Assembly (NCBI RefSeq): GCF_040954645.1
Contig: NC_092808.1
Location: 83,821,389 to 83,885,388, forward strand
Length of the DNA stretch: 64,000 nt
Reading direction: 5' to 3'
Source of the DNA: Diabrotica undecimpunctata
Lineage: Eukaryota > Arthropoda > Insecta > Coleoptera > Chrysomelidae
The position numbers were made by a program, and so were the translations under genes. Shown here piece by piece: positions 1,566 through 64,000 of the stretch; the stretch's first letter is position 1; the number at the start of each line of letters is the position of its first letter. The notes under the pieces were generated by a model. That model did no database searches. It was not told where the DNA came from and saw only the letters and a program-made list of their open reading frames with translations.

Positions 1566-1988
1566 AGATTATCTAAGATAAAAGATAAGACTCCCATAGA
1601 TAGACTTAGTAATATTGTCTACAACATTCCATGTCTCTCTTGCAACAATTCCTACATCGGTCAAACATCTCAATTATTGAAATCACGTATTACACTACAC
1701 AAAAGTGATTCTCGACTTCACCCTGACCGTTGTGCATTAGCCAAACATGTCCATTCCACTGGTCATCTCATGGACTATACTAACACCACAATTCTCCACC
1801 GTGAGAACAATAAATCTAAAAGAGAGTTCATTGAAATGTCTTATATTTTCCTTAACGATTTCTCCATTAATGTTAAGAGTGACATCAAGAATCTAAGCGA
1901 TATATACCACCTGTTACTTAAATCAGATACCAAGAACAATACTATATCACAGATAACTAACTTGACTGATATATCCATTAACAACTAA
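1566..1988 (+). pseudogene. Penelope-like element, C-terminal GIY-YIG endonuclease
   Basis: This frame encodes the C-terminal nuclease of a Penelope-like retroelement, the domain thought to nick target DNA for reverse transcription. Visible are a core of the form NIVYNIPC-x2-C-x3-YIGQTSQ, an arginine seven residues on (LKSRITLHKSD), then CALAKHVHSTGH and a KREFIEMSYI helix, in the order usual for this family. The frame opens after a TAA at 1563 and stops at 1987, with no reverse transcriptase directly upstream, so this is a 5'-truncated copy. An RT piece of the same class lies at 3010-4020 in the same orientation but the wrong order, so it is another copy or a tandem arrangement. The family is clear; activity of this copy is not. 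Confidence 0.85.
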
Positions 1989-2536
1989 CATACCTTTATA
2001 ATTACTTTTCATTAACAAAAAATATATAACATTCCCTTGCTTTTCTTAGATACGTCTCAATAAGATTCAATAATACATGAACAATATAATATAATTAAAT
2101 AAAGAAAATCAAAATAATATTTCCCTTTACTGGGATTTAAATTCATTCGTTTTTTACCAATGAACCTTAACGACATAAAGATTCATACGACCTACTGAAG
2201 TTGTCAGCGCTTGCGTTCTGGCTTAAACAGAACCTCACTTTTAACTATCTAAAAATCAAAAATTTAGTTATTGCCGACAATTCAAAGAATTACCTCCTTT
2301 TAAATGTAGTTGCATTGGGTTTTTCGATTAACCTTGGGTAAGCCTTTGCGTGTCAAGTTCGAAGCTACCATACATTTCAATCCTTATAAAAAACTTTTTT
2401 TGCACATAGTAACAAAAAACACCACTATGTTACTAGCAAAGTTTTTTAATATTCTAACTCTACAATTCTAAGTTACGGTAAGATCAATAATGTTTTAATA
2501 GATAATATATGGTAGCTAATTATAATTTATTCTCTT
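1989..2536 (+). other. Probable 3' untranslated part of the Penelope-like copy
   Basis: Non-coding AT-rich sequence between the GIY-YIG stop codon and the hammerhead motif at 2537. Penelope-like elements usually end in a non-coding pseudo-LTR that carries a hammerhead, so I assign this stretch to the same element by position only. Confidence 0.4.
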
Positions 2537-2590
2537 TCAGCCCTGAAGAAGCCAAATTAATTCTCTTTGGCGAAAACGTTCGGCGAAACA
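2537..2590 (+). ncRNA. Hammerhead ribozyme motif of Penelope-like type
   Basis: The core CTGAAGA (2543-2549) fits the hammerhead consensus CUGANGA. It is followed by stem II (GCCAAA 2551-2556 pairing with TTTGGC 2566-2571), GAAA (2572-2575), and a very short stem III: AACGTT at 2575-2580 is a palindrome, so it pairs best between two molecules. The cleavage position would follow C2581. Stem I is short: GCC 2540-2542 with GGC 2582-2584. Penelope-like elements are known to carry such type I hammerheads with tiny stem III, and the GIY-YIG piece 550 bp upstream supports the link. Only 3 bp of stem I pair perfectly, so activity is uncertain. Confidence 0.65.
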
Positions 2591-2676
2591 ATTGATACAC
2601 ATTAGAGTATTTCTTGCAGATTTCCCCAATATTTAAGAGTTTACTATTTAACTAATCTGCAAAGATTAAATTTCTT

Positions 2677-2678
<2 letters not shown>

Positions 2679-2710
<32 letters not shown>
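2679..2710. repeat. (TA)n microsatellite
   Basis: About 16 uninterrupted TA dinucleotides. It lies about 90 bp after the hammerhead motif and may mark the edge of the Penelope-like copy. Confidence 0.9.
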
Positions 2711-14901: not shown

Positions 14902-16305
14902 TGAATACAATAAAACCAAAAATAGTTACTTTTGACTACATGAGTAACAACTTAAATCAATCTTCTCCTACTGTTAGCAACACCATGTCTGGAATCAACG
15001 TTATCAGTAATAATCCAAATTCATATGCAACTGCTACTATGTCAAAACCCAAACCGAAATATCCCAAAAAAAGATCAAGCCATATTAATACATGTTGAAC
15101 CAAACTTATTACTACTCGACTACGTCAAAGCCATAGGTAATATTGTTAGCCCCAAAAACATATGCTTTACCTCAAGAATTATGCATCTACTTAACAAATT
15201 CTGAACTCGTCGAACATATTTTAACAGAATCTCCTACAATTACAATCAACTCTGTAGAACTACTCGTTAGAAGACTGGTAACCCCAGCCAAAAGACTAAT
15301 AATCTCCAACGTTTGTCCCTCAATACCTCATGAAATTCTAGAAAAACACCTTCAAGATCTAGGTCTTCAACTAGCTTCACCAGTGTCACATCTTAAAGCT
15401 GGAATCCACGGTAATGAATTTACGCATATTATGAGCTTCATAAGACAGGTATACGCTATACCAACTACAGATAGCCTTAAAATTAAAACTTCAATAATAA
15501 TTCCATTCGACAATAATTCTTACAGAATATTTCTCTCTACTGACAAAATGGCATGTTTTCTATGCAAAAAACATGGACATACAGCAAATAACTGTCAAAA
15601 TCCCCCTAGCAATCCTCTCCCAAATGAAGAAACGTCCCCAGCTGAACCCATCCCTGCTACCCCAATATCAAACAATATGGCACCACCAAATAAAACACAA
15701 AATTTGGTTCCCAGCCAACAGATAAAAACTGTCGATATATCCACCACTTTTATTGTCTCAAACAATGAATTTCTTTATCCTACCACTGGTCAGAAACGAA
15801 CTTGTTCTGACCTCAGCGATTCTACCTCCCAAGAAACAAACACATCTACTAACTTACTCATCAAAGACATTAAAATGCCTTCACCCGATGCAAACGTGCC
15901 TAAAAGCATAAAACTAAAAAATCCAAGAAAGTTGCACCTGATTAATCTAAATTAACCGCCTCCTCTGTTCTCACAATCAATAATCTTTATCAAGAAAATC
16001 CAAACTTATTCTCCTTACCGGTTGAAAATTTTCTTGCCTTTCTGGAAAACTCATTCGGCAGTAATAACCCTCTACAAGAAGTACAGCAGTTCACTCAAAA
16101 TGTTCGATTACTACTTGACGACATGTATAGAATATACCCTTCATTGGAAGATAGAACAATGTTTACAAGAGTTTCTAAGAAAATTAAACAGCAACTTAAT
16201 ATAGACAATTCAGAAATTGGAAGCACAACATCGCAGTCTACAAATAATGATGAAGATTATCTAACCGACTCTTATCTAACCATCTCTCAACGTTCCCAAT
16301 GTTAA
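14902..16305 (+). pseudogene. LINE ORF1 (Gag-like, CCHC), copy 2
   Basis: ORF1 of I-clade LINEs makes an RNA-binding protein that coats element RNA. Here the N-terminal part (KPKIVTFDY ... KPKPKYPKKR) is in one frame up to the A-run at 15066-15072, and the homologous continuation (KDQAILIHVEPNLLLLDYVK) is one base forward. Downstream, a frame from 15143 holds KRLIISNVCPSIPHEILEKH and one zinc knuckle, CFLCKKHGHTANNC. Another shift leads to the C-terminal block RLLLDDMYRIYPSLEDRTMF and a stop at 16303. The initiator ATG expected near 14902 is lost. An ATG at 16299 overlaps the ORF1 stop (ATGTTAA), which suggests coupled start of ORF2 in the ancestor. Confidence 0.8.
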
Positions 16306-18871
16306 AATTTTTTTACTTTCACGTTAGTGTAGTTAGTGAAGTGGAACTGCGATGGGTTCTACCCTCCCTTAGAACGCACACAACAATCAATAATACAAAA
16401 GCAGATATCATCTGCCTTCAAGAAACCAATTTCAAGGAAACACATAGACGTGAACTTAAAAATTTTGAAGGTTACCATTTTCTTCGGAGTACGTTTACAA
16501 GAGCAAGTGGAGGTACATCTATCTTTGTGTCTAATGATTTATTTTCTATACAATATATCCTAACTACCAATTTGGAGGCCATAGCAATAACTGTCTGGTG
16601 TCCCGACCAAATAACCATATCCAGTACATATATTCCACCTAATTACAACTTAACAGAAACCGAGTTAGATGACTTAATTCGCCAACTTCCCAGTCCTTTT
16701 ATACTAGTTGGAGACTTTAACGCCCATAATACTATGTGGTGCTCAAAGAAAACATTTAGTAGAGGAAAAACCGTAGAGAATAATTTTCAAACTAGCGCCA
16801 AAGATCATATTTTATTACTTCAACAATCTGAAGATATAGACGAGGCAATAACTCTCTTTAATAACTGCATTATTATGTCCGCAGAAAAACATGTAAAAAA
16901 AATAACAATATGCCCGTCTAAAAAAGCAGTACGATGGTGGAATTCAGAATGTGAACTAACTGTACGTCAATGCAAAACGGCCCTCAACACATATCGAAAA
17001 AGAAGAACTTAAGAAAACCTGATCTATTTCAAAAAGCTAAGAGCCAAAGCGAAATATGTCCTTAAAAAAGGCAAAAAAAAACCTGGCAAAATGTTGTTTC
17101 TACAATTACTACTAATACTCCACCATCTCAAGTTTGGACAAAATAAGACAGATGAAAGGTTATAAAACTCCTCAAAAAATTCCAGCTATATCACTAAATG
17201 GCAAAGTTATAACAGATAACCAAACAATTGCTCAAATCATGGCTGAAAGTTTTGCATGAAAATTCAGGTCTGAAGCTGAACAGATTGAAAGTCCAAATGA
17301 CCAGAATATACAAATTCCTCTTGCTCCACAAATAAGTAGACACGACATTGACGCTATTAACCTTACTTTTACACAAGAAGAATTAGCACTTGCACTATCC
17401 TCTTGTACGAACTATGCCGCTGGACCAGACAATATCCCAATTATATTCATCAAACATTTATATCATTCCAGCCTTGCAATACTGCTGAATCTTTATAACA
17501 AAATATGGCATACTCAGTAATTACCCAAACTGTGTCGTGAATCAATTATCATACCAATAAAAAAATCTGATCTACCCTCAAACCTTACAAAATCATACAG
17601 ACCTATCTCTCTAACCTGTTCGTTATGTAAACTGTTTGAGAAAATGATTAATTCAAGATTAACATGGCTTCTCCAAAAATATGCAATAATTGATGCAGCG
17701 CAATCCGGTTTTAGACGTCACCGTTCAACCCTCGATAATTTAGTGCTATTACAAACACAAATAGCTTTCGCTATTTCAAACAAACAAGATCTGATCGCTA
17801 CTGTCTTTGATATAGAAGGAGCTTTCGATACTATCTCGCGCCAAGCCATTCTTGAAAAGCTTCGTCAATACAAGATAACAGTAAATATTTACTTCTTCTA
17901 AAAAACTTACAACAAAGAACGTTCAAAGTAAAAAAAAATGGGGAAATTTGGGCGACATTCGGGCAAAATAATTAGCTCTATTAGAATGCAGTAAACATGA
18001 AACCTCAAGCCTTCTCATAAAAAACACTTCAAAGAAATCATAAGCAAAAACCATTTCCAAAAAAATTCTGTATACAGATGCCTCCAAAAGAGAAGCAGGC
18101 GTTGGATGTGCCGTTACCACATATGATGAAATAATAAAATAATCTTTTTTACCAAATTTATGCAGCGTATACACTGGAGAACTTTATGCGATACTGGAAG
18201 CATTTAAAATACTAAAAACAAATGATAAAAACCAAGCAATATGCACAGACTCCCTGTCGTCACTATAATCGATAAAAAGTCTATACTCTCAGCATGCCTT
18301 AGTTCAAGAAATCCATAGGACTTACAGTGCACTCGCTTTTCAAGGTGTAAATGTCACGATCATCTGGCTACTATCCCATATCGGCATCCCCGGTAATGAA
18401 AAAGCAGACCAAACAGCCAAGCAAGCTTCTTGTGTAAACAGTCAATCCTTAAAAGCCCAACATATTCAAATACATAATGACCTAAAGCAAATTTTCAAGC
18501 AACAACAGTATCATACCTGGCAAACCGACTGGGATACAATCAAGAGTGCCGGACATGAGATCCGGCAGACTGTTGAAAAATTTGAACTTCCAACTATCTC
18601 TAGAAACGAAAAAGCTGTCATCCGAAGATTAAGAATAGGACATACTCGATTCACACATGAATACTTAATGAAGTCCGAGCCGAAGCCCAATTGCCAAATC
18701 TGCTCAAGTGCATTAACTGTGAAACACATCCTGATTGAGTGTCCCCGTTACGCAAAACACAAAGTGCAACATAAACTTAAGTCTAATTTCAAAGAGGTTT
18801 TAAACTCACGCGATCAAGTCTTTAGCCTAACTGGTTTCTTGAAAGACATTCAGTTGTTCAACAGAATATGA
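16306..18871 (+). pseudogene. LINE ORF2 (endonuclease, RT, RNase H), copy 2
   Basis: The order is endonuclease (KWNCDGFYP, ADIICLQETNFKE, ASGGTSIFVS, LVGDFNAHNTMW), linker (VRWWNSECELTVRQCKTALN), RT start (NYAAGPDNIPIIF, SYRPISLTC, QSGFRRHRSTLDNL, FDIEGAFDT), RNase H (ILYTDASKREAGVGCAV, YTGELYAILEAF, ICTDSLSSL, LSHIGIPGNEKADQTAK) and a C-terminal CQICSSALTVKHILIECPR motif, with a stop after FLKDIQLFNRI. Compared with the copy at 24.5-28.2 kb, about 90 residues are missing near 16790 and the whole RT core with YADD is missing near 17930. Stops and shifts add to this. Confidence 0.85.
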
Positions 18872-24522: not shown

Positions 24523-27500
24523 TTAGAGTTTACTAAGCACTTCAATGTCTTTTAAATATTTAAACAGGTTTACAAATTGCTGAGTTTCACTTAACATTTC
24601 TTTAATATTATCTCCCAACTGGTGTTGTTTTCTTTTAGCAGAAAGATGCGGACATTCTATAAGAAAATGTCTGACTGTTAAGAGACTGCTGCAATGGCTG
24701 CATGAAGGTGGATCGGTAGATGCCATTAGAAAGCCATGTGTAAGACGAGTATGTCCAAGTCTTAATCTTCTTAGAATAACCTTGTGTCTTCTGGGCATAG
24801 GTGGTAGCTCTAAGGAAGGTATAACTGGTTGTATATCGTGTAAGTGACTCTGAGTTTTATTCCAATTAGCTTGCCATTTGTCATATATACGCTTCTTAAA
24901 CATTTTCTTAATATCATTATGCAACTGGATATTTGATATAGGTATATCCAAAGTAGAAGCTTCTTTTGCGGCTACATCTGCAGCCTCATTTCCTACAACT
25001 CCTACATGTGAAGATACAAAGACAATAGTGACAATTACTCCATGATCCGTAAGTTTATTATATATGTCATGTATTAAATTTACCAGAGGATGATCTGAGA
25101 ATATGTTTTTGATTACTTGTATTGATGATAAGGAGTCAGTGCAAATCGCTACATTGCGGTCAGTTGGTTCCAACATACGAAAAGCCTCGACGATACCATA
25201 TAGTTCTGCAGTATATACACTACAAACGGCAGGAAGTTTGATTAGTTTTGTAGTGCTGAAAGAGGAAACAACAGCACTACCCACCCCTACATCATTTTTA
25301 GAGGCATCTGTATAAAGAACTTTACGAAACTGATTTCGATTAAGTATGTCTAGGAACAATTGTTTAATTATAGCTTTAGGAGTATCATGTTTATTGAAAG
25401 AGCAAAGGGAAGTATTGACATTCGGAAGTTGCTTATGCCACGGAGGAAGTGTAGAGATATGAAAGGGTGAAGTTTCAGAAAGATCAAAACCATCGAGAAT
25501 AGAATTTAGTATGCAAGAGAGGGGTTGTGCAGCTCTAGTGGTCTGAGAATGATGAATGAGATTATTTGGTTGTATAATTAGTTGATAGACTGGATTTTGT
25601 GGATTGGCTGATAAGCTAGCTGCATATGACAAAAGAAGATGTTGTCTCCTTAACCAGAGTGGTGGTTCGTTAGCTTCACAGTGCATACTTTGAGCTGGGC
25701 TAGATCTGAAAGCACCTAAGCAGATCCTAAGACCCGTATTATGTACGGAGTCAAGAGCTTTTAGATGTGACTTGGAGGCAGACATATAGACAAAACTACC
25801 ATAGTCTATTTTTGAGCGAATAATGGATCTGTAAACTGTAAGCAATACCTCTTCGTCGGTTCCCCAATGAAAATGTGCTAAACTTTTTAGGATATTAATA
25901 TTTTTTAAGCAGTTGCCTTTCGTTTCCTTTATGTGTGTATTCCAAGTAAGTCTGGAGTCGAAGGTCAGTCCTAAGACTTTATGATGATCAATAACATCTA
26001 GTACTACTCCGTTGTATGTCAAAATTGGATTATCTTCTGTCGTTTTTCTGCTAAATCTCATGATTTTAGTTTTTTGAGAAGAGAAGGAAAGCCCAATATG
26101 CCTCGACCATCTTTCTATATTATCAATGGCTGTTTGCATTAGTCGACAGGTTGTTTCGGTATTCTTTCCTCTGCAAAAGAGTACAAGGTCATCAGCGTAT
26201 AATGCGTGTTTAACTGGAAGATGAATTCTTTTGCCTACATCATTAAATGCCAAACTAAACAGAGTTGTGCTTATAACAGAACCTTGTGGTACGCCATTAT
26301 GTTGAATACGAGTAGATGACCGCTTTCCGTTTAAAATAACTTTAAAAGTTCTATCATCTAAAAAATTCTGCACAAAGTAGTATATGTTTCCACCAAGTCC
26401 ACATTGTTGAAGTTTTTGGAGTATTATAGATTTTTGAACAGTGTCAAAGGCTCCTTCTACATCAAAAAAGGCTGCTAATAAATCTTGTTTACAGGCCATA
26501 GAGTCGGAAATATGTGACTGTAAAATTACCAAATTATCTGATGTGGAGCGATGAGATCTAAAACCGGATTGTGCCGGTGAAATAATTCTATTTTTTTCCA
26601 AAAACTAGATCAATCTTTTGTTAACCATTTTCTCCATTAATTTGCACATGGTGCACGTCAGTGATATTGGCCTATATAAATTAGATAAGCTTTGTGTTTG
26701 GTTATGAACTTTTTTAATTGGTATAATATATGATTCTCGCCACAGCTTAGGAAAATTATAACTGTTCCAAATACCGTTGTAAAATTTTAATAAAACAATG
26801 ATACACGGAGTCGATAATTTCTTTAAGAATATGAAAGGAATGTCATCTGGACCAGAGGCTGTGTTTTTACACAAATCGAGTGCCGTCATTAGTTCCTCTA
26901 AGGTAAATGGTGTGTTAATAGGATCGATTTCTTGTACAGTTTTTATTGTGGAGGCATTTTCGGTTAATGTGCCTGATGATATGTTAGGTGAGTATTGTCT
27001 TTTGGATTTTTGTTCAAACGTATCAGCTAGTAAATTGGCAATGCGTTGTGTGTCATTGATAACGATGTTTTTATAGCTTATACTTTGAATACCAAAACTT
27101 GTCTTACGGCCCTGCATTTGTCGTATTTTCGTCCATACTTCCGCAGAAGGAGTGTTGGTTTTTAGTGATGAAGTATATTCTCTCCATGAAATTTTCTTGT
27201 TTTCTTTTACCACGTATTTTGCTCTGGCCTTTAGTTTTTTAAATTGCACAAAATCTTCGTTATTTCGAGTTCTTCGATATTTGTTTAATGCTTTTTTGCA
27301 TTGACGAACTGCATATTCACAGTCCTTATTCCACCATGGTACTTTCTTCCGTCTATAGGTTGTAGAAGTTTTGCCAATATGTAAATCAGCTGCAGAGATA
27401 ATGCAGTGGATAAAAAGGTTCAGAGATTCGTCTACGTCATCAGAAAGAGACAGAAGTGAAAGTTTTTTTTCGAGATACGAGCAGAAGCCAATCCAATCTG

Positions 27501-28200
27501 CATTGGCGATTCGCCATTTGGGTACATTATAATTGCTAGATTTATTCTCGCTATTTGAAATCAGAATTGGAAAGTGGTTGCTATTAAAGAGACTGTCGAG
27601 GACATGCCAGTTTAATAGAGATGATGACTTTGGCTCAGAAAAGCTCAAATCAATTGTTGAAAATGTGCCAGAAGATATATTGCAGTATGTGCTTGATCCG
27701 GTATTTGATAGACAAGTGCTAGAACAATTTAATACATTTTCAATGACTTTTCCCCTTCCAAATGTTTTATCAGAGCCCCACATAATATTATGTGCATTAA
27801 AATCACCCACAAGGAGATAAGGAGTGGGGAGTTGATGGATTAAATCATACAGTTCCTCTTCTGAAAGTTTGTAATTAGGTGGTATGTAAATGCTGCATAC
27901 TGTAATTTTGCTGGGGCACCAGATGGAGACTGCGACTGCTTCAATGCCAGTAGTGAGTATGTGATGTGTAGAAAACAGATCTCTGGAAACAAAAATTGAG
28001 GTGCCGCCACTGGCTCTCAGGAAGTCCTTTCGTAGACAATGGTAACCTTCGTAATTTTTAAGTTGTCCAATTTTGGTATCTTTAAAGTTTGTCTCTTGTA
28101 AACATATAAAATCTGCTTCTGTTTCTGCGATCAATTGTTGGATTCTTTCGTATCTCGGATAGAATCCGTCACAATTCCATTGAATTAATTTGAAAAGTAA
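24523..28200 (-). pseudogene. LINE ORF2: endonuclease, reverse transcriptase, RNase H
   Basis: One frame of about 1,225 codons with a single internal stop (TAG, 26605-26607). The N-terminal endonuclease shows IQWNCDGFYP, DFICLQETNFKD (catalytic Glu), LLVGDFNAHNIMWG (Asp/Asn) and FNSNHFPIL (usual SDHFP, here N-H). The linker has VPWWNKDCEYAVRQCKKALN. The RT has NTASGPDDIPFIF, LYRPISLTC, AFFDVEGAFDTV, HNGVPQGSVISTTLF and HALYADDLVLF with both catalytic aspartates. RNase H has KVLYTDASKNDVGVGSAV, YTAELYGIVEAF, ICTDSLSSIQ and VSSHVGVVGNEAADVAAK. The end has CSHCSSLLTVRHFLIECPHL. The TAG replaces the Trp codon kept in copy 2 (TWLLQK at 17.67 kb). No ATG follows the upstream stop in frame before the endonuclease, so ORF2 start is probably by coupling with ORF1. 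Confidence 0.92.
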
Positions 28201-28208
28201 CTAAGTAA

Positions 28209-29550
28209 TTAAAAGGTAGATTTTTGGGACTTTTGTGATGTATCTAAGAGATAATCGTCGTCAGTTGATGATTGTGATACTTAAGCGTTGCTATTATCTG
28301 TGGTTAAATATTTCTTTAATTTTTTCGTTGTTCTGGTAACTCTACCCTTAACAGATCTTTCTGTTAAAGAAGGATATAGCTTATACATATCGTCCAACAG
28401 GACCTGTATATCTGTAGTAATTTGCAGAGCTTCGATTACTGGGTTGCCGTTGCCAAATGAGTTCTCGAGGAATGCAATAATCTGATCAGCTGTTAACGAA
28501 TAGTCATTCGGATTTGTGTTACAGAGATTTTGTATAATTGTCTTTGTGTTGTCTGATAAAATAGCTTCGTTTATGGACTGCATCCTAGGTTTCTTCTTAA
28601 CTAATTTTGGTTTATCAGTGCTGGAGGAGTGCTCAGGAGGGGGCATTACATCAACGTCGGATGTCTGATCTTCAAGAGAATTTGTGTCATTAGTTGATGA
28701 ATGCAGTCGTTTGACACCTGGTGCTGGTAATAATGTAGTTGCTTGAATATTCTCAGAATTTGTATCAATTATTGTAGTTGTTGACAATGTTGATGGTAAA
28801 TTATTTGATTGCGGCACTGAGGTTGTTTGTGTATTTGTGTTAGGACATTTGTTTGCTGTATGTCCAGGTTGTTTACAAAGGAAACATTCCATACGATCTG
28901 TAGACAAGAATATTCTATATGCAATATTCTCATGCTGTATTAAAAGTGACGTTTGAAGCTCGTAGTTCTCAGTAGCTGGAATAACGTAGACTTGACGTCT
29001 GAAACTCATAATATGCGAGTACTCATCTCCTGGGATACCTGCCTTTAATAATGATATAGGCGACACCATTTGAAGTCCGAAATCTTTGAGTGCTTGTTCT
29101 ATGATCTCGTTAGGTATGGATGGACAGACATTTGATATTAATATTCTCTTAGCTGGAGAAATTAGTCTTATACTCAGCTCAACGGAATTTACAGTTACAG
29201 TGGAATGCTCTAATATAAGCTGGTCTACAAGTTCGGTTCTTGATAAGTAGATACACACTCGGTTGTTTGATATTTTCGATGCAAAACAAACATTTTTGGG
29301 ATTAACGATGCTTTCAACTGCTTTAACGTAGTCCAATAACACAAGATTGGGATGAGAATGTATGATAATTGCTTGTTCTTTTTTTTGGAAAAATAGGTTT
29401 AGGTCTTGTTTTGGCTGCAGCAACGTATGAAGTTGTAGGTGTATTGTTTTCTCCGTCATTCGTTAACATTATTGATTTAGTTACGTTTGAAGTAGTTTGT
29501 TCAATTTCGTTGCCCTTGTAGTCAAAAGCAACAGGTTTAGGATTATCCAT
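28209..29550 (-). pseudogene. LINE ORF1 (Gag-like, CCHC) with frame switch
   Basis: The ATG at 29550-29548 starts a frame (DNPKPVAFDYKGNE ... RPKPIFPKKR) that reaches an A-run (plus-strand T-run 29379-29386). The homologous continuation (EQAIIIHSHPNLVLLDYVKA) is one base forward, then runs open to TAA at 28283-28281. It contains KRILISNVCPSIPNEIIEQA, the knuckle CFLCKQPGHTANKC and QVLLDDMYKLYPSLTERS. Past that TAA the same frame continues with QSSTDDDYLLDTSQKSQKS to a second TAA at 28211-28209; copy 2 has the homologous tail, so the first stop truncates the C-terminus by about 24 residues. The switch at the A-run is shared with copy 2. Confidence 0.88.
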
Positions 29551-39185: not shown

Positions 39186-42100
39186 TCCTCCGCCATTCAT
39201 GATTGGAGGGGACTTCAACCCTCACAACATGGCATGGGAATGCGAAACTAATGATACTCACGGTAAAGTTTTATTAGATTCAATAGAACAATGTAATCTA
39301 TTATACTTAAATGATGGTTCTCCAAATCTTGCACTAAGTTCCAGTCCATCAGCAATCGACATAACAATTTACACCCAGGACATTATATCTAAATTAACTT
39401 GGTCTGCTATTCAGATTCCACATGGATCTGACCATATACCCTTGACCATAGCCTTGGAAATTCCAAACAAGCAATACCACCTGATAACAATACACATAAA
39501 AGCTGAAATCTAAATAAAGCAAATTCAGCCAACTGTTATATCCAAAGTTCGATAAACTACTGCGAAAGCCTTAACTCCCACAGTCCGATCAGCGACGTCT
39601 GGAAGAAAGTACACCGCCACAAAAACCGAAAGCAGTCCAATAAACTCCCGATAAACTGCGAAGCTGCATGGATAGAAGATTTCCACTTCAAGATTTCACC
39701 TCCTTAGTTACCAAATCAAATAAACAAAGCTATAGTCGCCGTTTCCAGAGAATACTCCAATCTAGAAAAACCATTTGGAATGATTGTGGGAATTAAATCA
39801 CGGACCCAAACAAAATAATTGTTCGTCTCCAGGAATGGACTATATATGATATTCTATGCTATAGTTTTTACCCACAGAATACAAATTGTTTAATCATTAT
39901 TATTACAAATTTTTAACAATATATGGCAAAATGAGAATGAATTTCCACTATACAAGATGCTCTCACTTCACTAGTTTCCTCTGTTAAGGTCAATTTTACA
40001 AATCAAGAATCAACAACTGCAGCATTTATCGATGTAACCTCTACATTTGGTAACATAAATTTATATATTCTATATAAGAAATTGTTATATCTTAGAATGT
40101 CCGTTAAAATTTTAAATTTCATTATATCTCCATACAAGAATAGATGGACTATTACTTAAAAATAAATGAGAAACTTTTAGCGCCAAGGCTAACGAATATA
40201 CCACAGGGTAGTATTTTAAGTACACTTCTCTTTTCATTGTACAATATAGATCTGAAACAGATAGCACCTAAACACTTTAATATATTACAGTTTGCAGGTG
40301 ATGTTGTGTTGTATACCTCCCATGCAACCATAGACATTTGTAAGCGTCAACTCGAAATTACACTATATTGTAAAAAAATTATTACCATCCTCTAGGCCTA
40401 TCAATATCAATTACAAAGACTGAAATTTGTTTTTTTTAGAAAACGCCAAACTCCTCAAGGTAACATCAAATTAGGAAAAATAGAATTTCCAATCAAACAT
40501 TGTGTAAAATATCTGGGCATATATTTGGATCGTAAACTGTTATGGAAGGATCAAATTCATTCTATAAAAGAAATCGGAAAACTTTATGAATATCCTTAGA
40601 GCATTTTGTAAAACCAGTTGGGAAGCTGACCCGAATATTGAATTGCTATTCTATCGCTTAATGGCTTAATGATTGGACCAATTTTTGACTATACTTGTCA
40701 TTTATATTAGTCTGCGTCAACAGGACATCTTAATAAAATTAAAACCCAAAAGAATAAATGTTTGAGGTTAAGATTTGTTTGAGATTTAAATGTCTTGGTT
40801 ACTTAAAATCTACTCCTATTACTATTATAGAAATTGAAGCTAAAGAGCCACTCTTTATACTATGCAGACAGCTTTGTACAGATAAGTTTGTAGCTAGAGC
40901 TATCTCAAAAAACTTCAGCTACTTACAAATTATTCGCAACTTGAATATATTAGACTTAAGCCACAAATATTGGTGTAACAAAAAAACTCCCATATACGTT
41001 AAAATTTATAGGAAATTGACAATATTGAAGAACAATTATTGTATCAAAATAAAATACCACCAATTTATACTCAACCTCCTAAGACTCTCTTCTCCAAGGT
41101 AATAGAAACGTATTATATAGATTCAAACCTTCCAGAAAGTATGATTAACAAAATAATTAAAGATAAGTGGACTGCATTTTAATAATATATTTTTACGGGT
41201 GGCTCTAAAATTCAAAATAAAACGGGTTGTGCTATATATCACTGGAATTCTGATTACAAAAAATCATGTCGATTACCCAATGAAGCTTTAATATATACTG
41301 CCGAACTATCAGCCTTACTACTCACGTTATAATATATAGCCTCTATTGGTATGGATAAGTATATCATTCTGACCGATTGTATAAGCAATGTGGACAAACT
41401 TACTTCTATCAAAACCACAAAAAACCTAAACCATAGTGAAATAGAAACAAAGAGTTTACATTCTGATATTACTTCCGCAGGTAGCTCGATTATTATTTGT
41501 TGGGTAAAAGGATTCTCTGAAATATAAGGAAATGAAGAAGTCGACAAATTAGCTAAATTTTCAGCTTTAACCAAACATAATATAAACAACATACTTCTAT
41601 CAGTAACAGACATAGATATTATCAGTAAAAACAATTATTGCAAACAAAGATGGCAACGTTTATACAACCAAAGTACAACTGGAATAAACTTGCCAACCAC
41701 TAATTCTTAATGAAAGATGGTTTAAATATGAGCCAAACAGGTTATTTATAAAAACAAACAGAATAAGATCAAATAACGCACTCACTTCTGCATACAAAAC
41801 AGCATAGGTATCACTGATAACCCATATTGTTCCTGTGGTAAAGTGGGAGACCTACAGCGCATTATATTGGAGTGTGGACAGTAGGGAAAACGTATCAAAA
41901 TGATGTATGAAAAACTAATTGAGCTAAATTGTCCATTGCCTGTCAATTTGAATACAATTATTTTTTCAAATAATAAGCAAATATTAAAATGTATCTACGA
42001 ATATATAACGTCCTGCAAATTTAAATTATAAGTAGTTTTAGATAATAAAATTAAAAATTGTAAATATGTCAAAAACTGAAAAAATGTGTATACGAACATA

Positions 42101-42215
42101 TTACTCCCTGTAAATTTAGATTATAAATAGGCTTAGGTAATAAAATCAAAAATTGTAACTACCACCAATAGCCTGGCTAATTGACTCGGCCAAAGCCATT
42201 ACACAATAAAAAAAA
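39186..42215 (+). pseudogene. LINE copy 3 with RNase H, decayed ORF2
   Basis: Starts inside the endonuclease (PFMIGGDFNPHNMAWECETN, LLYLNDGSPNLALSS, HGSDHIPLTIAL). A large loss follows, then RT palm remnants (LTNIPQGSILSTLLFSLYNI, LQFAGDVVLYTS where FAGD replaces FADD), KYLGIYLDRKLLWKDQI, RNase H (IFTGGSKIQNKTGCAIY, IYTAELSALL, ILTDCISNVDKL, GNEEVDKLAKFS) and a C-terminal CSCGKVGDLQRIILECGQ motif. The 3'UTR holds a ~115-bp tandem duplication (about 41995-42160) and ends in an A-rich tail at 42207-42215. Related to but diverged from the I-clade copies. Catalytic Asp of RT motif C and first Asp of RNase H are lost. Confidence 0.8.
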
Positions 42216-52683: not shown

Positions 52684-52695
52684 AAAGAATATAAA
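52684..52695. repeat. Target-site duplication of the retrozyme-like insertion, left
   Basis: AAAGAATATAAA, identical to 53394-53405. AT-rich, but 12 of 12 bases match and the copies sit exactly at the element's edges. Confidence 0.75.
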
Positions 52696-52829
52696 AATCG
52701 GTAAGATAGTATCGAAACAAATTCAGATTTCTGCTTTAATCTGGAGCCTTCTAAAAATTGCAAGGCATAGCCAGACGTTGATAAAGATGTTAATAGAGAC
52801 ATGGGGAATCTAAAATTTGCATTCCAGAT

Positions 52830-52992
52830 CGAAGCCATTTTATTGTTGCTTCCTAATAAGACAGAGAAGATTATTTTTCACGTTAAGAACGGCTATGAAT
52901 AACTGTTCTGATGAGACTTATTAAGTCGAAATACGTATCAACAGATACATAGACGCTTTGTACGTGAAATCAAATCTTTTCTGTCTTTTTCA
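52830..52992 (+). repeat. 163-bp direct repeat, unit 1
   Basis: Starts CGAAGCCATTTTATTGTTGC and ends TTTCTGTCTTTTTCA. It is identical along its whole length to 53232-53394. Contains hammerhead 1. Confidence 0.95.
52890..52955 (+). ncRNA. Type I hammerhead ribozyme, copy 1
   Basis: Canonical core: CTGATGA (52908-52914), stem II GACTT/AAGTC (52914-52918 overlapping the G, pairing with 52922-52927), GAAA (52928-52931), palindromic stem III ATACGTAT (52931-52938) and cleavage after C52939. Stem I pairs CTGTT (52903-52907) with AACAG (52940-52944), then after a small internal loop CTATG (52893-52897) with CATAG (52948-52952), and CG with CG outside. The zero-loop stem III means it would act best as a dimer or double hammerhead, as known for several animal type I hammerheads. 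Confidence 0.88.
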
Positions 52993-53231
52993 TTTTATTC
53001 GGATCTACTCTGTATGAGTACAGGAAACAAATTCGTTAAGGATTTCTGCTTAGTTGAGGAGACATGTCGTGGAATGAAAATTTCAGATTTTTCATGTCTC
53101 TATTAACATCTTTATCAACGTCTGGCTATGCCTAGCAATTTTTAGAAGGCTCCAGATTAAAGCAGAAATCTGAATTTGTTTCGAAACTATCTTACCGATT
53201 TTTCTATCAGATGTCGCTATTGCGTCCATAA

Positions 53232-53394
53232 CGAAGCCATTTTATTGTTGCTTCCTAATAAGACAGAGAAGATTATTTTTCACGTTAAGAACGGCTATGA
53301 ATAACTGTTCTGATGAGACTTATTAAGTCGAAATACGTATCAACAGATACATAGACGCTTTGTACGTGAAATCAAATCTTTTCTGTCTTTTTCA
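53232..53394 (+). repeat. 163-bp direct repeat, unit 2
   Basis: Identical to 52830-52992, offset 402 bp. Its last base overlaps the first base of the right target duplication. Confidence 0.95.
53292..53357 (+). ncRNA. Type I hammerhead ribozyme, copy 2
   Basis: Same sequence as copy 1, with CTGATGAG at 53310-53317, GAAA at 53330-53333 and cleavage after C53341. Every stem described for copy 1 is kept. Confidence 0.88.
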
Positions 53395-53405
53395 AAGAAT
53401 ATAAA
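53394..53405. repeat. Target-site duplication of the retrozyme-like insertion, right
   Basis: AAAGAATATAAA, exact match to 52684-52695. Confidence 0.75.
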
Positions 53406-62610: not shown

Positions 62611-64000
62611 CCCTAGAATACTAACGTTTCTTTAACATACGTAAATGCTAACTATACGTAAATTTTACGTACTCACTGATTTAGGTCTAGTATTTTCTTT
62701 TTATTCTTTATTTTATTAAAAAAAATATTTTAATTTTATGAGAAGTTTATTTAGGAACGATACAAATAAAAAACATTGAAATATTAATAATCCAAACATA
62801 AACAACATAAAATATATACTTTTGACACAGAACAGATACTTGTAATAATGTACACGATAAACCAGTGCATATAATAAACATTACAAATTATAGAAACGAT
62901 AACCTTCTATTGATGTACACATTCCATGCACATTTTTATTTGATGCTCTCCACACAAGGTACTCCTACACTTGTAACATTTAGTAGTTGTCATTCGTTTC
63001 TTTGCTGTAGAGCATAAACTACAGTAAGTCCGTTTTCCTTTCCCTTGGGGCTCTCGGCGTTCTTCAGCAACATGCGTTATATTTAAAAGCATGGAAAGAC
63101 TCTCTTTGAGATAGTTGGTACTGTTTGGAGTCTTATTTGTTGTCACGGCTTCATTAATTGTTCATGAAGTTTTAGCATAAAATTTAATCTTGTCTTCCTC
63201 TTACAGCAAATGTTTTGAGACATTTGGTCAAACGTATCTACAGCCCCTTTAGTTGAATTATATGTATGGATTATTTCGGGTTTTGTTATTTCATGATTAA
63301 TGTTTCCAGAAAAATGCATAGTTAAAAGTAGAAGAACTGTCTTATTTTGCTTAGTTTTATAAGATAATAAAGTCATGTTTTCATCGTACACAAACATACT
63401 TGAATCGCACTTCCAAGTTTTATTATCGAACAATTCAGGGTGTATTTCTCCTTTATTTTTCGGGACTGTTCCGACCATTGTCAAATTGTAAGAGGATGCT
63501 AGAAATAAAACCAGTTGTTCATTGCTACAGTACGTCTACTTCCATGTAAAGGTCTCATCAGGCTTGTGACAAAATGTTCTGCTAAAGGAATGCCGTTAGT
63601 TACAGTAGATTTATCCAGATACTGTGTTGCATTTATTACATATTTCGTAGCCACATTGCAAACCAAAGTATTTTTATGCCGTATTTACTAGGTTTGTTTG
63701 GCATATACATGCAAAATGGACACCTGCCACGAAATCCTAGGAGTTGTTCGTCAATTTTCACATATGAACTAGCTTTATAATTTTTGGCACAGTTTTCAAT
63801 CAACAAGTTTCCAATTTTAGATATTGGAGAATAACTACTTTCTTTTTTACGTTCTTCTCTTGTCAAGAAGTTATCATATCGTAAAGATACGAAAATGGTT
63901 GCGTTTCGATTTAATTTGAGCTTCTTACCACTCCCTGACACGTGTTTCTGGGTCTTCCCGTCATCAGAGAGAGCTTGTAAGAAAACTCAAACTAAACCAA
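62611..64000 (-). mobile_element. PiggyBac element, 3' part
   Basis: TTAA at 62607-62610 is followed by CCCTAGAATACTAACGTTTC, which resembles the CCCTAGAAAGATA end of classic piggyBac, and by subterminal repeats around TACGTAAAT (62638-62675). The minus-strand transposase lies inside, and the other end is beyond the window. Confidence 0.8.
62907..64000 (-). pseudogene. PiggyBac transposase (partial, decayed)
   Basis: From the window edge down: ATIFVSLRYDNFLTREERKK near 63890, NYKASSYVKIDEQLLGFRGR near 63760 (first catalytic Asp present), PFCMYMPNKPSKYGIKI, a shift, LDKSTVTNGIPLAEHFVTSL with TVAMNNWFYF near 63520 (usual DNWFTS, second Asp is Asn), VGTVPKNKGEIHPELFDNKT, YNSTKGAVDTFDQM (third Asp present) and the C-terminal zinc-binding end CSLCSTAKKRMTTTKCYKCR with CGEHQIKMCMEC. 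PiggyBac enzymes cut and paste at TTAA. Frameshifts near 63636, 63484 and 63143 disable it; the N-terminus is outside the window. Confidence 0.88.

Follow-up and report, generated by a model that had tools for sequence, protein, structure and literature searches.

The 698-bp insertion at positions 52696–53393 of the window (the whole 64,000-nt stretch of Diabrotica undecimpunctata DNA analysed here) is probably a noncoding, non-autonomous retrozyme of the animal type, and its most likely mobiliser is a Penelope-like enzyme priming at two fixed sites on the retrozyme RNA. We favour a Penelope-type mobilisation because the insertions have two fixed ends (A and B), their arms stand head-to-head, and the Penelope-like elements (PLEs) resident in the same genome follow a like grammar.

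Organisation of the insertion

Self-comparison of the window brackets the insertion with two copies of a 12-bp target-site duplication (TSD), in agreement with the original prediction, which had described a coding-free retrozyme-like element with two hammerheads. The features discussed below are as follows, with unit coordinates counted from the first base after the expected cleavage site (unit 1 = 52940).

1566–2710, plus strand: C-terminal piece of a PLE (PLE1), a separate insertion, with a GIY-YIG frame at 1566–1988
52684–52695, unstranded: left TSD, AAAGAATATAAA
52696–52826, minus strand: B arm, an inverted partial unit running from unit ~263–268 (outside) to 131 (inside)
52823–53393, plus strand: A arm, 1.42 direct 402-bp units (unit 286–402, 1–402, 1–52/53)
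52858–52986, plus strand: first hammerhead hairpin, with CTGATGA at 52908–52914, GAAA at 52928–52931 and the palindrome ATACGTAT
52940–53341, plus strand: 402-nt unit whose release is predicted from double cleavage
53027–53179, plus strand: predicted long hairpin ('rod'), unit 88–240, between the A and B sites
53192–53207, plus strand: B site in the unit (unit 253–268), CGATTTTTC, where B arms stop
53260–53388, plus strand: second hammerhead hairpin
53394–53405, unstranded: right TSD, AAAGAATATAAA

Elsewhere the window carries LINEs with endonuclease, RT and RNase H frames (24523–29462 and 15137–18871), a fragment matching DDE_Tnp_1_7, a piggyBac-type transposase (63143–63535), and an isolated 95-bp unit in 1.8 repeats with 83% matches (41986–42158).

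Within the element, a direct repeat with a spacing of 402 (52823–52992 and 53225–53394) contains the two identical 163-bp units that had been predicted: identity is complete over 52830–52992, and the nearest differences lie at unit 290 and 292 (52827 and 52829). From the same self-comparison, 52689–52826 is an inverted copy of 53070–53207 (94% complementary), so the insertion is two-armed and head-to-head; its left ~130 bp are an inverted piece of its own 402-bp unit, a part of the anatomy absent from the original prediction. The left arm reaches outward to unit ~268 and stops at the B end, not sharply defined because of A-rich microhomology to the TSD, and the right arm reaches outward to unit 53 and stops at the A end, TCTGTCTTTTTC. 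Six private differences separate the arms, all of them in the A arm, which means that the arms either derive from non-identical units or mutated after copying. No open reading frame above 60 aa lies inside the element, as had been claimed; the single overlapping one begins outside it.

Both hammerheads are complete in sequence, with stable predicted hairpins

Each copy reads CTGATGA-GACTT-ATT-AAGTC-GAAA-TACGTATC, followed by AACAG. Judged by sequence, both are complete type I hammerheads, as first described, with a 5-bp stem II and a stem III formed by the loop-less palindrome ATACGTAT; cleavage would be expected after C52939 in the first copy and after C53341 in the second. Stem I is lengthened by a long hairpin (52858–52986 in the first copy). 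The predicted folding energy of each hairpin is −43.7 kcal/mol (z −5.6 for the first and −6.4 for the second, against 200 shuffles); the folding program leaves stem III undrawn, which is not surprising for a 4-bp stem that has no loop. Folded as a circle, the 402-nt unit reaches −111.8 kcal/mol (z −5.9; none of 200 shuffles as low), and its complement also beats the shuffles (z −5.5). In the predicted circle the A site is more unpaired (0.76) than the average (0.38), and the B site less clearly so (0.56).

The covariance-model check proposed earlier counts against the hammerheads: no Rfam family matched the window element at the gathering threshold, and a RAGATH-1-hammerhead was recovered only below it (E ≤ 10), at 21.4 of 56.3 bits (E 0.64). 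Minus-strand miRNA matches at E ≤ 10 were likewise below threshold and looked like chance, and were discarded.

The core CTGATGA ... CGAAATACGTATC is intact in both window copies and in 94 of the 117 hammerhead regions found at 40 dissected loci. The mean non-major fraction, compared without a significance test, is 0.010 at 12 core positions and 0.0154 outside the hammerhead hairpin. The copies are ~97% alike, and the family is too young to tell whether the core is under selection.

A new retrozyme family in the beetle genome

The expectation of further copies was borne out. Searching the whole genome with the 37-nt hammerhead core (up to 3 mismatches) gave 2,341 matches, against none for a reversed-pattern control. 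A whole-genome similarity search returned 212 matches from the best 40 of 2,045 candidate places. The 40 loci dissected below (the window and L009–L047) are the best-scoring of these 2,045 first-look candidates, and the query contained the inverted arm, which inflates the share of two-armed copies among them; the A/B rule described below and the neighbour list for contig C1 are independent of this bias. That list covers exact hammerheads only, namely the first 100 matches listed, all on C1, which group into 73 clusters. Among these matches, nearly all close pairs on one strand are 397 or 402 bp apart, agreeing with the tandem units anticipated and showing that a 397-bp variant of the unit exists. 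Neighbours within 2.5 kb of each other in the same list are head-to-head in 13 cases, direct in 14 and tail-to-tail in none.

By anatomy, the element is supported as a new family of the metazoan non-LTR retrozymes of Cervera and de la Pena 2020 (PMC7229834), its unit being 402 bp long or, in a variant, 397 bp, and both the class and the novelty proposed in the original prediction stand. As characterised in the accessible text of that paper, such retrozymes carry a type I hammerhead in every unit, consist of AT-rich tandem units of 150–450 bp (here 402/397 bp, with a GC content of 34%), are flanked, where a TSD is present, by more than 4 bp of it (here at least 10 bp at 29 of 40 loci) and occur in thousands of genome copies; no LTR, PBS or PPT is described for them, and the beetle element is noncoding. 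The beetle family differs in its new sequence and unit size, in a longer palindromic, loop-less stem III, and in insertions that are often head-to-head with two fixed ends; neither 'inverted' nor 'head-to-head' occurs in the accessible PMC7229834 text. The satellite retrozymes of newt and axolotl (330–350 bp), as covered there, share a weak, partly palindromic stem III, for which dimeric cleavage is expected, but differ in sequence, unit size and host. Plant LTR retrozymes are also non-autonomous, with hammerheads flanking the unit (PMC4918200), but they are of LTR type with type III hammerheads (per PMC7229834).

Since 402/397-bp tandem arrays are present, the family could be pictured as a satellite DNA whose tandem units happen to contain a hammerhead and which spreads by recombination or through circles of extrachromosomal DNA. 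We regard this as very improbable, because TSDs flank 29 of the 40 loci, the retrozymes are single insertions dispersed over many chromosomes, and their fixed ends are unrelated to the array phase.

Insertions end at two fixed sites on opposite arms

The A end is TCTGTCTTTTTC followed by 0–8 bases or by a short CATTT-type tail, at unit 53–60; the B end is TTACCGATTTTT, at unit ~253–268, so that the two are ~205 nt apart. End classes were assigned by hand, and a rule-based recount gave identical numbers. One A and one B end are found on opposite strands at 23 of the 40 loci; 16 have an A end only (14 one-armed copies, and L016 and L033, in which a second arm ends elsewhere); one, L011, is B/B without an A arm; and none is A/A. 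The 26 two-armed loci are thus 23 A/B, one B/B, two A/other and no A/A. The 23 mixed pairs out of 24 depart from a 1:1 expectation (p 1.5e-6), and every one-armed locus carries A (14/14, p 6e-5). Inner ends of A arms fall at unit 111–290 in 31 of the 35 arms typed, a count that excludes L013, L030, L041 and L046 (complex) and L011.

TSDs of at least 10 bp, mostly 11–14 bp long, flank 29 of the 40 loci, as against 0.64% of mismatched flank pairs; the right ends of L017, L021 and L046 were placed by hand ahead of this count. They are found at 22 of the 23 A/B loci and at 7 of the 14 one-armed loci. The TSDs are 85% AT and the distant flanks 68%, indicating an AT-rich target, and (TA)5 lies within 60 bp of just one of the 40 loci.

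Inverted arms and TSDs would also suit a foldback or MITE-like DNA transposon, the arms serving as terminal inverted repeats. This reading is hardly credible, even less so than a satellite origin: the outer ends A and B are different sequences, the arms are unequal, their inner junctions vary, and 14 of the 40 copies are one-armed, 7 of these with a TSD of at least 10 bp.

Mobilisation by a LINE, through target-primed reverse transcription with inversions by ordinary twin priming, deserves more weight but is still unlikely. Twin priming produces 5′ inversions, the window contains LINEs with intact frames, and the TSD length suits LINEs too. However, twin priming would scatter the second end, whereas B is fixed in 23 of the 26 two-armed loci and at both ends of one more, and poly(A) is absent from the retrozyme ends. 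In addition, one resident LINE family, a modest control since many of its rows are diverged, gave no head-to-head and one same-strand close pair (143 of 150 rows, on large contigs).

Penelope-like elements in the same genome follow a like grammar

PLEs have been put forward as candidate retrozyme mobilisers from co-occurrence and shared hammerheads (PMC7229834 and PMC7761336). Purified Penelope protein, whose targets are AT-rich, cuts the two strands of the target and extends both; its reverse transcription starts at two internal RNA sites, which accounts for the alternative genomic 'tail' ends of Penelope (PMC11167929). The typical Penelope copy has an inverted pLTR, a TSD and, optionally, a 31-bp tail on one inverted pLTR (PMC3846280). 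The beetle insertions resemble these Penelope/Poseidon-type elements in their head-to-head arms, TSD, AT-rich target and tandem copies, in two alternative 3′ ends of which the longer is on one arm, and in a hammerhead lying a short distance upstream of where reverse transcription begins. The retrozyme lacks an RT/GIY-YIG frame, and is therefore not a PLE but only inserted like one.

At least three PLE families besides PLE1 (at least four in total) are present in the genome. PLE1, with an 857-aa frame and a tandem spacing of 3,272 bp, has 26,607 first-look candidates, of which the best 150 scored at ~99–100% identity; among these 150, close neighbours are head-to-head in 27 cases, direct in 12 and tail-to-tail in none. 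The 17 loci with readable ends (24 arms) stop at two fixed ends 35 nt apart. Its seven two-armed loci comprise four END1/END2 and three END1/END1, the latter with near-symmetric arms, so that the mixed-end rule is broken in 3 of 7, which counts against our reading.

Of 40 PLE2 rows, 27 break off at a sharp end and 13 continue past it; its 13 head-to-head loci carry the sharp END2 on exactly one arm in 10 cases, on both in none and on neither in 3, although arms outside the END2 list may merely be unscored. PLE3 rows stop in two zones, at 139 (2 rows) and at 169–180 (9 rows), and the rest read through or start late. A hammerhead-like motif whose stem III is palindromic lies in the pLTR of all three families, shortly upstream of the ends. 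Measured from the inferred cleavage site, these ends lie at ~+63 and +98 (PLE1), ~+101 (PLE2 END2), and ~+95 and +125 to +136 (PLE3); those of the retrozyme lie at +53 to +60 (A) and +253 to +268 (B).

The ~205 nt between A and B exceed the 30–40-nt Penelope tail (PMC11167929 and PMC3846280), a point against a Penelope-type mobilisation. B would be at ~+100 once the predicted 153-nt hairpin is discounted, a post hoc adjustment on which the fit depends.

The PLE1 piece in the window has its hammerhead-like motif from 2543 (near 2543–2582) and ends in (TA)n at 2680–2710; the GIY-YIG match (E 0.00065) is under Pfam's cut-off. We take it as a copy of one candidate mobiliser class. PLE1 itself is not supported as the direct partner: all 24 arm ends enter (TA)n, an unusual target choice, whereas 1 of 40 retrozyme loci has (TA)5 in its vicinity, a difference that also weighs against the PLE analogy. 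No retrozyme sequence shared with a Penelope family of this genome was found in the stretches compared, and the similarity of the A end to the PLE2 pLTR (TTTCATTTT) was dismissed as too short and AT-rich.

Among side observations, PLE1 forms multimer arrays on C3 and C4 with exact 3,272-bp spacing (for example L068), and head-to-head PLE1 array loci have long intact frames on both arms; PLE1 looks recently active. On the minus-strand arm of L065, END2 carries a long, slipped tail of T/CTTTTC, which suggests that reverse transcription stuttered at its start; the short CATTT tails of retrozyme A ends are comparable.

Origin of the two arms

At 16 of the 40 loci, variants private to the locus are repeated in at least two units. 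This could reflect copying of monomer or dimer circles, and transcripts of uneven arrays fit too. L024 and L035 have private variants in alternate units (period two), as if a dimeric circle had been copied.

The head-to-head arms might also stem from a single cDNA or antisense template that snaps back or primes itself, and not from two priming events, an idea discussed for rotifer Penelope and favoured there owing to palindromic junctions (PMC3846280). We consider this improbable, slightly more so than mobilisation by a LINE. The private variants 100C, 344A and 230C of L042 are present in both arms, and the three near-symmetric END1/END1 loci of PLE1 are what such a process might leave; yet it does not explain why the outer B end is fixed and differs from A, 315T of L012 is in both A-arm units but absent from the B arm, the window arms differ as well, and purified Penelope protein is able to extend the two strands of its target (PMC11167929). 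Because the arms share private variants in L042 but not in L012 or the window, an origin of both arms from one RNA is no more than possible.

Proposed mechanism and significance

Taken together, these features suggest the following Penelope-type route. Tandem units would be transcribed, and their type I hammerheads, whose palindromic stem III lacks a loop, would cut, probably as dimers, to yield 402-nt (or 397-nt, or multimeric) RNAs that would then be circularised. A Penelope-like RT/GIY-YIG enzyme, acting in trans, would nick both strands of an AT-rich target ~12–14 bp apart, and both target DNA ends would be extended on the retrozyme RNA: one always at site A (unit 53–60), just 3′ of the hammerhead hairpin, and the second, when used, at site B (unit 253–268), beyond the long hairpin. 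Copying for more than one round, or along a multimer, would give tandem units, and joining of the two cDNAs would produce a head-to-head insertion with a TSD. Also counting against this route are the 11 of 40 loci without a TSD of at least 10 bp and the six sites at which the window arms differ.

Our literature search found no paper joining retrozymes with inverted arms and target priming, and none, by title or listing, on hammerhead ribozymes of this kind in Diabrotica. As a trace of mechanism, the fixed, alternating ends of head-to-head arms allow the Penelope hypothesis to be tested in any retrozyme genome and in the existing purified-Penelope assay. We see an even chance that animal retrozymes are SINE-like parasites of Penelope, with a two-fold RT complex seating each target end on its own RNA site and a single circular RNA templating both arms; if true, the A/B grammar would be a genome-readable signature of the retrozyme mobiliser in other animals. 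With a retrozyme family and at least four PLE families side by side, the beetle is a good system for such a test.
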